Origin: Chitinophagaceae bacterium
Lineage (GTDB): Bacteria; Bacteroidota; Bacteroidia; Chitinophagales; Chitinophagaceae
DNA: 64,000 bases
Assembly (NCBI GenBank): GCA_019638475.1
Contig: JAHBTR010000001.1
Span: 434,001 to 498,000 of the forward strand
Reading direction: 5' to 3'
Shown here: piece by piece, positions 14,573 to 49,331 of the stretch
How the letters are laid out: the number at the start of each line of letters is the position of its first letter
Numbering within the stretch: the stretch's first letter is position 1
The notes under the pieces: model-generated
What the model was told of the DNA's origin: nothing
Seen by the model: only the letters and a program-made list of their open reading frames with translations
The model's database searches: none
Program-made: the position numbers and the translations under genes

Positions 14573-15619
14573 ATGAAAAGCAAATTCTCTATTTTTTGTG
14601 TAGCTGCAAGTATTATAGCAGTTTCATTTACAGCATGTAAAAAAGATGATACAAAACCTTTAATTCTTCCATCATCGGGTAGCGATACCTCTTTTAATTT
14701 AATAGCAGCTTCTGAAAGTGGTGCCAATGCTTCCAACTCTGCCTTTATAGATTTTAGTGCAGATAATATAACGATATCTGGTAGGGCAAGTTGGGATTTA
14801 GCATTTTATTGTGGTAGCGATTTTAGGGTAACATTGAATTATAAAACAGCAGCATTAACAGCAGGGCTAACCAAAAATGACCTTACAACAGTGGCAGCAG
14901 CAGATACCATAGGCTTACCATTGGTATTAACTTACTCTGCTGATGACTTTGCTAAGGTGGATAGTTTTTCAGGAAACTTAGCTTATACCAGAATACCTGT
15001 ACAAGCTACTGCATCTGACAATAAAGTGTTTATTATACAAAGAGGTACAGGTGCAGGTGTTGCAGCAAGACCTTGGTATAAAGTACGTGTGTTGCGTAAT
15101 GCAAGTGGTGGTTATACTTTGCAATATGCAAGAATTACAGAAACAACTTATCAAACTATTGATATAGCAAAAGATGCTGACTATAATTTTAAATTTGTTT
15201 CTTTTGATAATGGAGTAGTTTCGGCAGAGCCTAAAAAAGCAGAATGGGATATTCAATATTCTGCTGCTCTATACAAATATCCTTATGGTGCAACTGATAT
15301 TCCTTATATATTTTCTGATATAGTATTGATAAATTATTTAGGGGGTGTGCAAGCTGCTGAGGTATTAACTACTTCTTATACTTTTGATGGTATTACTTTA
15401 GCTAATGCACAAGCACTTACTTATAGTTCAGACAGATGGGCTATTTCTGATAAATGGCGTACAGCAACATCAGGTTCTTCTCCTGGTGTTTTAACAGACC
15501 GTTTTTATGTAGTAAAAGATGCTGCTGGCAATTATTATAAACTTAAATTTATTAGTTTTCATAATGCAGAAGGTGGCGTTAGAGGAAGACCAGAAATTAA
15601 GTACCAATTAATAAACTAA
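14573..15619 (+). CDS. hmuY: HmuY-family heme-binding lipoprotein
   Basis: A 348-residue lipoprotein. The signal peptide ends in the lipobox SFTAC, followed by KKDD. The central ISGRASWDLAFYCGSDFRVT and the later KKAEWDIQYS are typical of the HmuY beta-rich domain, which captures heme at the surface and passes it to the partner receptor. The length is greater than HmuY of Porphyromonas, but similar long versions are usual in environmental Bacteroidota. It follows the TonB receptor in an operon and is convergent with scpA. Confidence 0.82.
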   Translation: MKSKFSIFCVAASIIAVSFTACKKDDTKPLILPSSGSDTSFNLIAASESGANASNSAFIDFSADNITISGRASWDLAFYCGSDFRVTLNYKTAALTAGLTKNDLTTVAAADTIGLPLVLTYSADDFAKVDSFSGNLAYTRIPVQATASDNKVFIIQRGTGAGVAARPWYKVRVLRNASGGYTLQYARITETTYQTIDIAKDADYNFKFVSFDNGVVSAEPKKAEWDIQYSAALYKYPYGATDIPYIFSDIVLINYLGGVQAAEVLTTSYTFDGITLANAQALTYSSDRWAISDKWRTATSGSSPGVLTDRFYVVKDAAGNYYKLKFISFHNAEGGVRGRPEIKYQLIN

Positions 15620-19210: not shown

Positions 19211-20440
19211 TTAAGATAATTTAGCTTGTAATGCTTTGTCTAATTCATCTAAAAACTCTTCAGTATATAAATAATGTTCGCCATGATTTACTTTATTACC
19301 ATGAATACAAACAGCTAAGTCTTTTGTCATTTTACCACTTTCTACAGTTTCTACACACACTTGTTCTAAAGCATTACTAAATTTAATTAGCTCATTATTA
19401 TTATCTAATTTACCTCTAAACTCTAAACCTCTTGTCCATGCAAAAATAGAAGCAATAGGATTGGTAGAAGTTGGATTGCCTTTTTGATGTTCACGATAGT
19501 GTCTTGTAACAGTACCATGTGCAGCTTCTGCTTCCATAGTTTTTCCATCAGGTGTTACCAAAGTAGAAGTCATTAAACCTAAGCTGCCAAAGCCTTGTGC
19601 TACTGTATCACTTTGTACATCACCATCATAATTTTTACAAGCCCAAACAAAATTACCATTCCATTTCAATGCACTTGCTACCATATCATCTATTAAACGA
19701 TGTTCGTAAGTAATACCTGCTGCATCAAATTTTGCTTTAAATTCTTGTTGATAAATTTCTTCAAAAATATCTTTAAACCTACCGTCATATTTTTTAAGAA
19801 TGGTATTTTTTGTAGATAAATAAAGAGGCCATTTTTTTTGCAATGCAGTATTAAAACAACTTCTTGCAAAACCTTTTATACTTTCATCTGTATTATACAT
19901 AGCCAATGCTACACCATCTCCTTTAAAATTATATACTTCATGTTCTATTACATTGCCATCTTCTGCTTCAAACTTAATGGTTAGTTTTCCTTTTCCTTTT
20001 GTTACAAAATCTGTAGCTCTGTATTGGTCGCCAAAAGCATGACGACCTATGCAAATAGGAGCAGTCCAGTTAGGCACTAAACGAGGCACATTTGTACAAA
20101 CGATAGGCTCACGAAAAACAGTACCATCTAAAATATTTCTGATAGTGCCGTTAGGGCTTTTCCACATTTGTTTTAAACTAAACTCTTTAACCCTTGCTTC
20201 ATCTGGTGTTATGGTAGCACATTTAATGCCTACACCATATTGTTTTATAGCATTAGCAGCATCTATTGTTACTTGGTCATTAGTAGCATCTCTGTGTTCT
20301 ATACCTAAGTCATAATATTTAATATCTACATCAAGGTAAGGAAGAATTAATTTGTCTTTAATAAATTTCCAAATAATTCTTGTCATTTCATCGCCATCCA
20401 ATTCTACTACAGGATTGGCTACTTTAATTTTAGCTGCCAT
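19211..20440 (-). CDS. icd: NADP-dependent isocitrate dehydrogenase
   Basis: A 409-residue enzyme of the TCA cycle, oxidising isocitrate to 2-oxoglutarate. It is of the eukaryote-like dimeric type: [20 protein letters not shown] at the start, then [40 protein letters not shown] and the NADP-site region [16 protein letters not shown]. It is full length with a clear ATG. The gene stands alone between a repeat-rich upstream gap and a terminator. Confidence 0.97.
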
Positions 20441-20517
20441 TGTTTTATGAATTAAAATTGATTTAAAATAAGTGAGGCAAATATAGGGTGAATGCTGTGA
20501 ATGATGTTTGCTTATAA

Positions 20518-20700
20518 TGAACTTGTTTAGACTTTTAATTTTTTACGAATTGTGAATAAAAAACGCTGTCAGCCTGAGCCTGTCGAAGGCGAGGGTTAAA
20601 AAATATGCTTCAATTAATCGGTTTCGACAGGCTCAACCTGACAACTTTCACTTTTTTTAGCTTCGTGTATATTAAATTGATAAAAGTCTAAACAAGTTCA
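20518..20700. repeat. MITE-like element with 20-bp terminal inverted repeats and a nested REP-like palindrome
   Basis: TGAACTTGTTTAGACTTTTA at 20518-20537 is matched exactly, inverted, at 20681-20700. Inside, a second imperfect palindrome pairs 20566-20587 (CTGTCAGCCTGAGCCTGTCG...) with 20623-20643 (TTCGACAGGCTCAACCTGAC...). No coding capacity is seen. The inner unit recurs singly at 39578 and 49080. It could be a non-autonomous transposable element or a nested insertion; the transposase family is not identified. Confidence 0.75.
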
Positions 20701-20796
20701 ATAATAGAAAACTTACAATATTTTTTTTGACTTGAAATTAAAAAGGAAAAAAGTAGCAATTCTTTAGAAAGAGGAATATTACTAAGGTTATTCAAC

Positions 20797-20829
20797 AAAA
20801 AAGCCACTTTAATTTAAAGTGGCTTTTTT
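20797..20829 (-). terminator. Intrinsic terminator after an outer-membrane protein gene
   Basis: A 14-bp stem (AAAAAAGCCACTTT at 20797-20810 with 20816-20829) and a T-rich end on the minus strand, 20 bp after the stop of the barrel gene. Confidence 0.75.
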
Positions 20830-20849
20830 GATAATTACTAAATTCTTAA

Positions 20850-21353
20850 TTAGAAATTATAGAATGCTTTTAGACCGAAAAAGCTTAAGCTACCACCACC
20901 TTTTGCAGAAACACCAGAATAGTGTGCTAATACTTGTATATTACCAAAGCTGTAACCAACTTGTGGGCTATACATAAAGCCACTACCACCACCTTTAGTA
21001 AAAGAACCAAAGCCTACTCCAGCACCAACTGTGAAGCCACTAGATACATAACGACCACCCACTAAAACTGGTATAAAGCCTATTGAAGGAACTTTAAAGC
21101 CTGAAATACTTTTTCCTGAAAAGTTATTATAGCCAACTTGTGCAAATCCTTCAAAACTTTCAGAAGCATGGTATGTTGCTTGAAGTTCAGCACCAATGCC
21201 AAAGCTATATGTTTTTCCAAAATTACCCATAGGGAATGAAAGAGATGGACCTACACCAAAGCTAAAACCTTTGCTTGATGATTCTTTTTTGTCTTGTGCG
21301 TTTACTGTAAAAACTATTACAGTAGCTAAAGCAAGTGTGAAAATTTTTTTCAT
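20850..21353 (-). CDS. Small outer-membrane beta-barrel protein
   Basis: A 167-residue protein with a signal peptide (IFTLALATVIVFTVNAQ) and a Gly/Ser/aromatic-rich mature part of alternating strands: FGVGPSLSFPMGNFGK, IGAELQATYHASE, GGRYVSSGFTVGAGVG. It ends in Phe (KAFYNF), as expected for insertion by the BAM complex. It resembles the small eight-stranded porin-like barrels of Bacteroidota. The next upstream gene is of the same type, possibly a diverged duplicate. The function is unknown. Confidence 0.8.
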   Translation of the reverse strand: MKKIFTLALATVIVFTVNAQDKKESSSKGFSFGVGPSLSFPMGNFGKTYSFGIGAELQATYHASESFEGFAQVGYNNFSGKSISGFKVPSIGFIPVLVGGRYVSSGFTVGAGVGFGSFTKGGGSGFMYSPQVGYSFGNIQVLAHYSGVSAKGGGSLSFFGLKAFYNF

Positions 21354-21522
21354 GTTTGTTAATTTTTATTTTTAAATAAGGGTTAAAAAAACTTAGGCAA
21401 AGATAGAGGGTTTTATATTAAAAAAATACCCAATAGTGGGTATTTTTATTTTTGTTAATAATTAACAACCCCTTAATAATTTTATAAACACATAGGCTAA
21501 TAGTACCTACTTATCTATATAA

Positions 21523-39162: not shown

Positions 39163-41199
39163 ATGTTGTTCAATAGAAATAATTTATCCAATCAAGACCT
39201 TCGTTCTATTTATAAAGCATTGCTTTTACCAAGAATGATAGAAGAAAAAATGCTTGTTCTTTTACGTCAGGGAAAAATAAGTAAATGGTTTAGTGGTATA
39301 GGACAAGAAGCAATAGCAGTAGGCTCTACATTGGCATTGAAAAAAGATGAATGGATAATGCCTTTGCATAGAAACTTAGGTGTTTTTACCACCAGACAAA
39401 TGCCTTTGCAAAAATTATTTATGCAATGGCAGGGCAATAAAGATGGTTATAGCAATGGACGAGAAAGAAGTTTTCACTTTGGTACAAAAGAGCATTTTAT
39501 CTGTGGTATGATTTCTCATCTTGGACCACAATTAGCTCTTGCAGATGGAGTTGCTTTAGCTTATAAACTAAAACATAGTTCGACAGGCTCACCACTAAAA
39601 GTTTCTTTAGCATTTACAGGAGATGGTGGCACCAGTGAAGGAGATTTTCATGAAGCACTTAATGTAGCAGCAGTGTGGAGTTTACCAGTAATTTTTATTA
39701 TAGAAAATAATGGTTATGGATTAAGTACTCCTGTTAATGAACAATATTGTTGCGAAAGTTTAGTAACAAAAGCAAAAGGCTATGGAATAGAAGGAGTGCA
39801 AATAGATGGCAATAATATTTTGACAGTATATGATACCATAAAAGGAGTAAGAGATTATTGTATAAGAGAGCAAAAGCCTTATTTAATAGAGTGTATGACT
39901 TTTAGAATGAGAGGACATGAAGAAGCCAGTGGTGTAAAATATGTACCCAAACATTTATTTGAAGAATGGATAAAAAAAGACCCAATACAGAATTATGAAA
40001 ATTATTTATTATCAGAAAATGTTTTGACTCAAGAAATAATTGATATTATTAAAAATGAAATAAAAGAATACATAGAAACAGATTTGCAAGAAGCCTATAA
40101 AGCTGCTCATCTTATACCTGATAGTAAAGAAGAATTGAATGATGTATTTGCGAAGCAGACAACAGACGACAGACGACAGACGACAGAAAAAAAATTGGAT
40201 GAAAATGGACTATGGGTTGAAGATGATGGACTATCGTCTGAACTGCGTTTTATAGATGCTATTAAACAAGGGCTGCAACAAAGTATGCAACAACATAGCA
40301 ACCTTGTTTTAATGGGTCAAGACATTGCAGAATATGGTGGAGCATTTAAAATAACAGAAGGATTTGTTCAAGAGTTTGGCAAAGAAAGAGTTCGTAATAC
40401 ACCACTTTGTGAAAGTGCTATTATAGGTACTGCTTTAGGATTAAGTTTAGAAGGTTTTAAAAGCATGGTAGAAATGCAGTTTGCAGATTTTGTTAGTGTG
40501 GGTTTTAATCAAATAGTCAATAACCTTGCTAAAATTCATTATCGTTGGGGACAAAATGCAGATGTAGTAGTAAGAATGCCTTGTGGTGGTGGTGTAGGTG
40601 CAGGACCTTTTCATAGTCAAACAAATGAAGCATGGTTTACCAAAGTAGCTGGGCTAAAAGTTGTTTATCCTGCTACTCCCAAAGATGCAAAAGGATTATT
40701 AATTGCAGCCATTAATGACCCTAATCCTGTATTATTTTTTGAACACAAAGCTTTGTATAGAAGTGTGCATGGTTTAGTACCAGAAAATTATTATGAAATA
40801 GAAATAGGCAAAGCCAATGTAGTAAAACAAGGTAATGAAATAACTGTTATTACTTATGGTGCAGGTGTGCATTGGGTATTGGAATATATAGAAAATAATT
40901 CTGCTGTAAGTTGTGAGTTATTAGATTTAAGAACATTGCAACCATTGGATTATGATGCTATACAAAAAGCAGTAGCAAAAACAGGAAAAGTATTAATAGT
41001 ACATGAAGATTCTTTAACAGGAGGTTTTGGAGGAGAAATTAGTGCTTGGATTAGTGAACATTGTTTTGAACAATTAGATGCACCAGTATTGCGTTGTGCA
41101 AGTTTAGATACACCAATACCTTTTAATATAGATTTAGAAAAAAATTATTTAGCCAAAAGCAGGTTAGCAACATACTTTGAAAAATTATTAAACTATTAA
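39163..41199 (+). CDS. Fused E1 alpha-beta subunit of a 2-oxoacid dehydrogenase
   Basis: A 678-residue thiamine-diphosphate protein. Residues 1-325 match E1 alpha (GIGQEAIAVGSTLALKKDEW; FTGDGGTSEGDFHEALNVAA; NNGYGLSTP) and residues 355-678 match E1 beta (LVLMGQDIAEYGGAF; RMPCGGGVGAGPFHSQTNEA). Such fusions act with E2 and E3 on pyruvate or branched-chain 2-oxoacids; the substrate is not certain. Two repeat-derived insertions are seen: a REP-like unit (39578-39593) that yields HSSTGSPLK near residue 140, and a 7-bp tandem repeat (40155-40186) in the linker between the two halves. Confidence 0.93.
   Translation: MLFNRNNLSNQDLRSIYKALLLPRMIEEKMLVLLRQGKISKWFSGIGQEAIAVGSTLALKKDEWIMPLHRNLGVFTTRQMPLQKLFMQWQGNKDGYSNGRERSFHFGTKEHFICGMISHLGPQLALADGVALAYKLKHSSTGSPLKVSLAFTGDGGTSEGDFHEALNVAAVWSLPVIFIIENNGYGLSTPVNEQYCCESLVTKAKGYGIEGVQIDGNNILTVYDTIKGVRDYCIREQKPYLIECMTFRMRGHEEASGVKYVPKHLFEEWIKKDPIQNYENYLLSENVLTQEIIDIIKNEIKEYIETDLQEAYKAAHLIPDSKEELNDVFAKQTTDDRRQTTEKKLDENGLWVEDDGLSSELRFIDAIKQGLQQSMQQHSNLVLMGQDIAEYGGAFKITEGFVQEFGKERVRNTPLCESAIIGTALGLSLEGFKSMVEMQFADFVSVGFNQIVNNLAKIHYRWGQNADVVVRMPCGGGVGAGPFHSQTNEAWFTKVAGLKVVYPATPKDAKGLLIAAINDPNPVLFFEHKALYRSVHGLVPENYYEIEIGKANVVKQGNEITVITYGAGVHWVLEYIENNSAVSCELLDLRTLQPLDYDAIQKAVAKTGKVLIVHEDSLTGGFGGEISAWISEHCFEQLDAPVLRCASLDTPIPFNIDLEKNYLAKSRLATYFEKLLNY
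39578..39593. repeat. REP-like unit inside the fused E1 gene
   Basis: GTTCGACAGGCTCACC matches the core TTCGACAGGCTCA found in the intergenic element at 20623 and at 49083. In the gene it is in frame and yields HSSTGSPLK just before the conserved VSLAFTGDGG motif. Confidence 0.7.
40155..40186. repeat. 7-bp tandem repeat (GACGACA) in the E1 alpha-beta linker
   Basis: A run of CAGACAA followed by about three GACGACA units encodes KQTTDDRRQTTEKK, residues 331-344, exactly at the junction of the E1 alpha and E1 beta halves. The 7-bp unit length equals that of the repeat in ileS at 3635. Confidence 0.8.
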
Positions 41200-48949: not shown

Positions 48950-49331
48950 TGTTTACTTTTAAGAAAGACAAAGGTATATAATACTAACTTAAAAGAAACA
49001 AAAACCTTAGTTTATTTAAATTATTTTATCAAATATTAAAAATAGGGGTAATTATGAAAACATAATCAACTAAAACAGTCTTCGACAGGCTCAGATTGAC
49101 AGCATTATTTTTTGTCATATTGAGTTTGTGGAAATGTGATTTTTAAAAAGTTTAAAGTTGAATGTTTAAGGTTTAAAATTCATCATTCAAAATTTTTTAT
49201 CAACTTAATTACCTCATTTAACTCAATTACCTTAATCAACTTAATTAGGTTTGTACGTTTAAGGTTTTAAAATTCATAACTCATCATTCAAAATTTTTTA
49301 TTAACTCAATTACCCTAATCAACTAAAACAC
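48950..49331. repeat. Repeat-rich intergenic region before tatA and after purH
   Basis: A 382-bp gap. It contains a REP-like unit (CTTCGACAGGCTCAGATTGA at 49081) and two related direct repeats of the form TTTAAGGTTT(T)AAAATTCAT ... ATCATTCAAAATTTTTTAT, starting near 49166 and 49258. Each is followed by runs of AACTTAATTACC/AACTCAATTACC words. Words such as TTTAAGGTTTAAA also occur at 4321-4335 upstream of ileS. No gene is seen. Confidence 0.75.

Follow-up and report, generated by a model that had tools for sequence, protein, structure and literature searches.

A probable non-autonomous IS5-family MITE with an inner REP pair upstream of icd in a Chitinophagaceae bacterium

The non-coding unit that lies upstream of icd in this Chitinophagaceae bacterium is very probably a non-autonomous transposon of the IS5 family (MITE), one of a set of copies of 181-220 bp that carry a pair of REP-type repeats and whose transposase has since been lost. 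The terms REP and MITE are used here as defined previously (PMC3733652). The family is of a known kind, the bacterial MITE; only its composite nature and its subfamilies of REP length are unusual.

Ends, layout and folding

The element is 181 bp long (positions 20519-20699 of the window, the whole 64,000-nucleotide stretch of DNA that was analysed), with perfect 19-bp terminal inverted repeats, GAACTTGTTTAGACTTTTA (Table 1). The preliminary description had reported exact inverted ends of 20 bp, and the window scan did find TGAACTTGTTTAGACTTTTA exact where it had placed them, at 20518-20537 (+) and 20681-20700 (-); allowing up to three mismatches, no match besides these two occurred in the rest of the window, with a chance expectation of 0.04 matches. 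As for the twentieth pair, it did not hold: in the other copies the outermost pair changes with the flanking sequence, which leaves 19 bp as the true terminal repeat, and the T...A pair counted as part of it is the inner edge of an AAT duplication.

The inner inverted repeat (20562-20592 and 20618-20648, 81% complementary) consists of two REP-type repeats in opposite orientation. Single-strand folding was far stronger than that of shuffles, with z of -9.0 as DNA and -10.9 as RNA; because the two REP repeats pair with each other, the whole element is predicted to be able to form one long hairpin. The distance from the element is 78 bp to icd and 150 bp to the gene on the other side. Past the element, a 24-bp near-perfect inverted repeat with a T run (20789-20837) lies 3' of a gene for a membrane-protein-like product of 167 aa (20850-21353, - strand), and it is likely an intrinsic terminator.

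Table 1. Features of the element and of its surroundings (positions in the window)
Feature	Position	Strand	Remarks
icd, isocitrate dehydrogenase	19211..20440	-	Pfam Iso_dh; downstream gene, context only
TATATTTG, TAnnTTTG box of icd, outside the element	20478..20485	-	TAYATTTGC conserved in 10/10 icd upstream regions of the genus
Left 3-bp target site duplication AAT	20516..20518	.	same triplet on both sides in 17/20 copies
Left 19-bp terminal inverted repeat GAACTTGTTTAGACTTTTA	20519..20537	+	
Left REP-type repeat, short form	20566..20592	-	core 20575-20587, - strand
Spacer between the REP repeats	20593..20617	.	
Right REP-type repeat, short form	20618..20645	+	core 20623-20635
Right 19-bp terminal inverted repeat	20681..20699	-	
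Right 3-bp target site duplication AAT	20700..20702	.	

Copies in the genome and unfilled sites

Twenty full copies with both ends, from 181 to 220 bp, are dispersed on eight contigs of the genome from which the window derives (2.59 Mb, 12 contigs), with a mean pairwise identity of 0.949 over ungapped columns. Their alignment with the flanks showed that all share the 19-bp end; a 21st relative, L021, is a degenerate, partial element only. The flanking triplets are identical in 17 of the 20 copies and do not match in the other three, against a mean of 2.0 and a maximum of 8 when the flanks were shuffled 5000 times; the triplets duplicated are AAT, AAA, ATA, ATT, GAT, TTA, ACC, TAT, TCT, GCT, TAA and AAC. 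Judged against ORF-based gene calls, every copy is intergenic or touches a gene end, and none is spanned by, or lies inside, a predicted gene; the neighbouring genes are divergent in eight cases, tandem in eight and convergent in four, a placement consistent with insertion into intergenic DNA in general and not with a role as terminator.

Regarding the unfilled sites, the flanks of three copies (L003, L008 and L012) were joined and their counterparts sought in the congeners. G008 has an uninterrupted counterpart of each of the three sites and G001 of two, L003 and L008, and no terminal repeat occurs within the stretch read in either genome; the insert is missing from these sites, whose match is not base-perfect because the intergenic regions of the congeners have diverged. 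At the L008 site, the copy separates the stop codon from a terminator-like hairpin, which in the relatives comes directly after the stop. Two congeners hold copies of the same architecture, namely L059 in G001 (220 bp, target duplication AAA) and L060 in G009 (181 bp, AAT). The element upstream of icd is absent in all nine congeners; this locus was rejected as an empty site of its own, because the readable congeners have a different gene order upstream, and in one congener the contig or stretch ends 109 bases upstream of icd. The earlier label of MITE-like is thus borne out by the 20 copies, their 3-bp duplications and the three unfilled sites, as well as by the autonomous elements with near-identical ends presented below.

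Partner insertion sequences

The ends were searched, with up to two mismatches, in 195 genomes of the family. G167 returned 12 matches, many of them near contig ends, as would be expected of a multi-copy IS, and further matches were found in G055 and G120. Elements bounded by GAA[CG]TTGTTTAAACTTTTA-type ends are L095 of G055 (902 bp, target duplication AAT), L087 of G120 (911 bp, with differing flanking triplets and an interrupted reading frame) and L160 of G097 (929 bp). For the transposase of L095, the matches to Pfam DUF4096 and DDE_Tnp_1 passed the curated cut-offs and that to NCBIfam transpos_IS5_3 stayed below its own, so that autonomous elements with an IS5-type transposase exist whose ends are near-identical, not identical, to those of the MITE. 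G055 also contains L103, a stretch of 246 bp having both ends of L095 and no middle, which is a deletion derivative of an L095-type IS and shows how such MITEs arise. Closer to the present genome, G009 retains the remains of an IS5-type transposase gene, with internal stops and two pieces that are 33% and 26% identical to P0001; next to it comes TAAAAGTCTAAACTAGTTC, the better-preserved end of this decayed element, one mismatch from the end of the present one. These searches turned up no intact IS whose two ends are both exactly GAACTTGTTTAGACTTTTA, and the MITE and the IS that were found share no clear sequence beyond the terminal repeat.

In its own genome, searches with P0001 and DUF4096 gave no match, in a 12-contig assembly where a gap could hide a transposase. 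The only DDE_Tnp_1 match there, L204 (G000:C6, ~84613-84837), was rejected as the partner, being fragmentary and without these ends; it is a fragmented relic adjoining another truncated transposase-like reading frame. The preliminary description had proposed to look for a transposase gene between the same ends; related genera have one, the genus itself has a decayed one, and this genome has none. The missing partner does not exclude an IS5 origin, since orphan MITEs are known; with neither a matching transposase nor a Y1 transposase in the genome, the family looks orphaned.

The inner REP pair

The REP core TTCGACARGCTCA is present in each of the two inverted repeats of every copy, in some with base changes. 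The genome has 81 of these cores, 43 of them outside the MITEs and several of those as inverted pairs; hence the palindromic repeat also exists free and paired, as REP/BIME sequences do. The inner palindrome had been credited with a separate existence in the window, and indeed the 13-nt core occurs there twice more, once between genes (49081) and once within a gene (39579). The former (49081-49093) belongs to a free, apparently intergenic REP-type repeat, after which comes a second half that has diverged, TGTCATATTGAGTTTGTGGAAATGTG. The latter (39579-39591) is an exact core, TTCGACAGGCTCA, read in frame in a 2-oxoacid dehydrogenase E1 subunit-like gene (...KHSSTGSPLK...), and is possibly a REP fragment tolerated within the protein.

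The REP pair occupies the same place in all 20 copies and in both congener copies (L059 and L060). Because all copies and a distant congener copy carry it there, the composite of MITE and REP is ancestral and is not the result of an insertion into this copy; of the two options advanced earlier, a composite hairpin element or one repeat inserted in another, the latter does not apply to this copy.

Each REP repeat exists in a short and a long form; in the long form of the left repeat, TGTCACATT precedes and ATGTGTCGAA follows the short-form core, and the right repeat behaves likewise. The copies are short-short (4 copies, 181-182 bp), short-long (8 copies, 200-201 bp), long-long (6 copies, 219-220 bp), or combine a long repeat with a one-sided intermediate (L013 and L014, 210 bp); in these last two, ~10 bp are missing on one side only, as expected from a deletion between the short direct repeats TTCGACA. 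The G001 copy is long-long and the G009 copy is short-short, which is compatible with either direction of length change. These changes presumably happened while the MITE was still moving, because every class is represented by several copies at separate sites.

As for the origin of the REP repeats, no Y1_Tnp, the REP-type transposase, was found in this genome, and among eight Y1_Tnp loci of the congeners only one has a REP core within 1.5 kb; therefore, an origin from RAYT is not established. On contig C75 of G055, three REP pairs of ~80 bp stand at a spacing of 168 bp (14666-15081), without the MITE ends. A composite of two systems, in which an IS5 DDE transposase moved the element by its ends, a separate RAYT-like activity lengthened or shortened the REP hairpins and the resulting subfamilies spread as a MITE, is regarded as improbable.

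The element and icd

The sequence TAYATTTGC is conserved in 10 of the 10 icd upstream regions of the genus, and it contains a TAnnTTTG box, which we take to be the -7 type promoter element of Bacteroidetes. At 20485-20478, the box is 33 bp from the edge of the element, between the element and icd, and no TAnnTTTG box occurs inside the element on either strand; therefore, the core box is not split by the element, which supplies no evident box of its own. The element might act on the sequence upstream of icd, or on transcripts that read in from the adjacent gene, but nothing supports such an effect, and the element is most likely neutral for icd.

Proposed origin and alternatives

In the origin that is proposed, an IS5-type DDE transposase encoded elsewhere would have recognised the 19-bp ends, and the copies would have inserted between genes at 3-bp, mostly A+T-rich targets, duplicating them. 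Early on, the element would have acquired, or been built around, an inverted pair of REP type, and this pair would have spread along with it, with no role beyond hitch-hiking. The transposase would later have been lost in the lineage, which would probably leave all 20 copies without mobility today. The presumed agent of their earlier mobilisation in trans is the IS5 lineage described above.

The same copies might be read as a family of RNA or DNA hairpins that serves the host, as bidirectional terminators, mRNA stabilisers or small RNAs, and is kept for that function without being a transposon. Both strands are predicted to fold very strongly (z -9.0 as DNA, -10.9 as RNA) and the copies are intergenic, which speaks for it, but the 3-bp target duplications and the unfilled sites show insertion, convergent gene pairs are not preferred (4/20), and the copy at L008 separates a gene from its terminator-like hairpin; moreover, IS5 elements have matching terminal repeats, and the region 19800-21500 has no Rfam match. 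A role of this kind is, in our judgement, very unlikely.

Less credit still is given to a REP/BIME-type unit that was moved by a Y1 transposase and whose outer inverted repeats are merely a long stem. REP cores are indeed found in every copy, besides the 43 outside the elements, and related REP pairs of 77-80 bp without these ends occur in G055 and G009; nonetheless, the genome has no Y1_Tnp, and the part that stays constant across the copies has the terminal repeats, and not the REPs, as its borders. Target duplications and IS5-transposon ends, both observed here, are not expected of RAYT mobility. Finally, free REPs exist in the genome and in the window, and one of them could have entered this copy of a MITE later and by chance; with the REP pair at the same place in 20/20 copies and in both congener copies, such nesting is refuted for this copy, it could hold for the ancestor of the family only, and it is the least probable of the readings. 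The IS5-family MITE with an ancestral REP pair is thus the origin retained here.

Comparison with known systems and wider searches

The family falls within the general class of the IS-derived bacterial MITEs, such as NEMIS, Nezha and RUP (PMC3852290, PMC3733652). Like these, it is non-coding, within their range of 70-300 bp, and has terminal inverted repeats (15-30 bp in the class), target duplications and many intergenic copies, and its similarity to the partner IS is largely at the ends, a restriction also described elsewhere (PMC3852290); unlike them, it has a conserved REP pair and no partner IS was found in its own genome. With the IS5-family elements L095, L087 and L160 it shares near-identical ends (1-4 mismatches per end) and, where clear, the 3-bp target duplication (AAT of L095), whereas these elements are ~0.9 kb, have a transposase gene, and do not share its interior. 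As in REP/BIME, the short imperfect palindromes form inverted pairs and are also free between genes, but here they are enclosed in the ends of a DDE-type transposon, in a genome with no RAYT gene.

Outside the family, PLSDB plasmids gave no match, nor did IMG/VR viral contigs when searched with the ends GAACTTGTTTARACTTTTA. A scan of GTDB genome contigs with the exact end returned three records. In the UW2SPNA023 MAG the matching stretch equals the G001 copy exactly, in Chryseobacterium a stretch has one end in good shape and a poor second end, and the match in Thermohalobacter stands by itself. The Chryseobacterium defluvii stretch (L158, 241-461) measures 221 bp, with one exact and one diverged end, and is possibly another IS5-type MITE, outside the order. 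The literature search returned nothing on the REP core, or on a REP-bearing IS5 MITE in Bacteroidetes.

In conclusion, the family offers a clear example of an orphaned bacterial MITE, for which the ends, the target size, the unfilled sites, a decayed IS in a congener and intact partners in related genera are all at hand. It also presents a DDE-type MITE as the carrier of REP repeats, with step-wise length variants visible among its copies, a point of interest for the spread of REP pairs in genomes that lack a RAYT gene.
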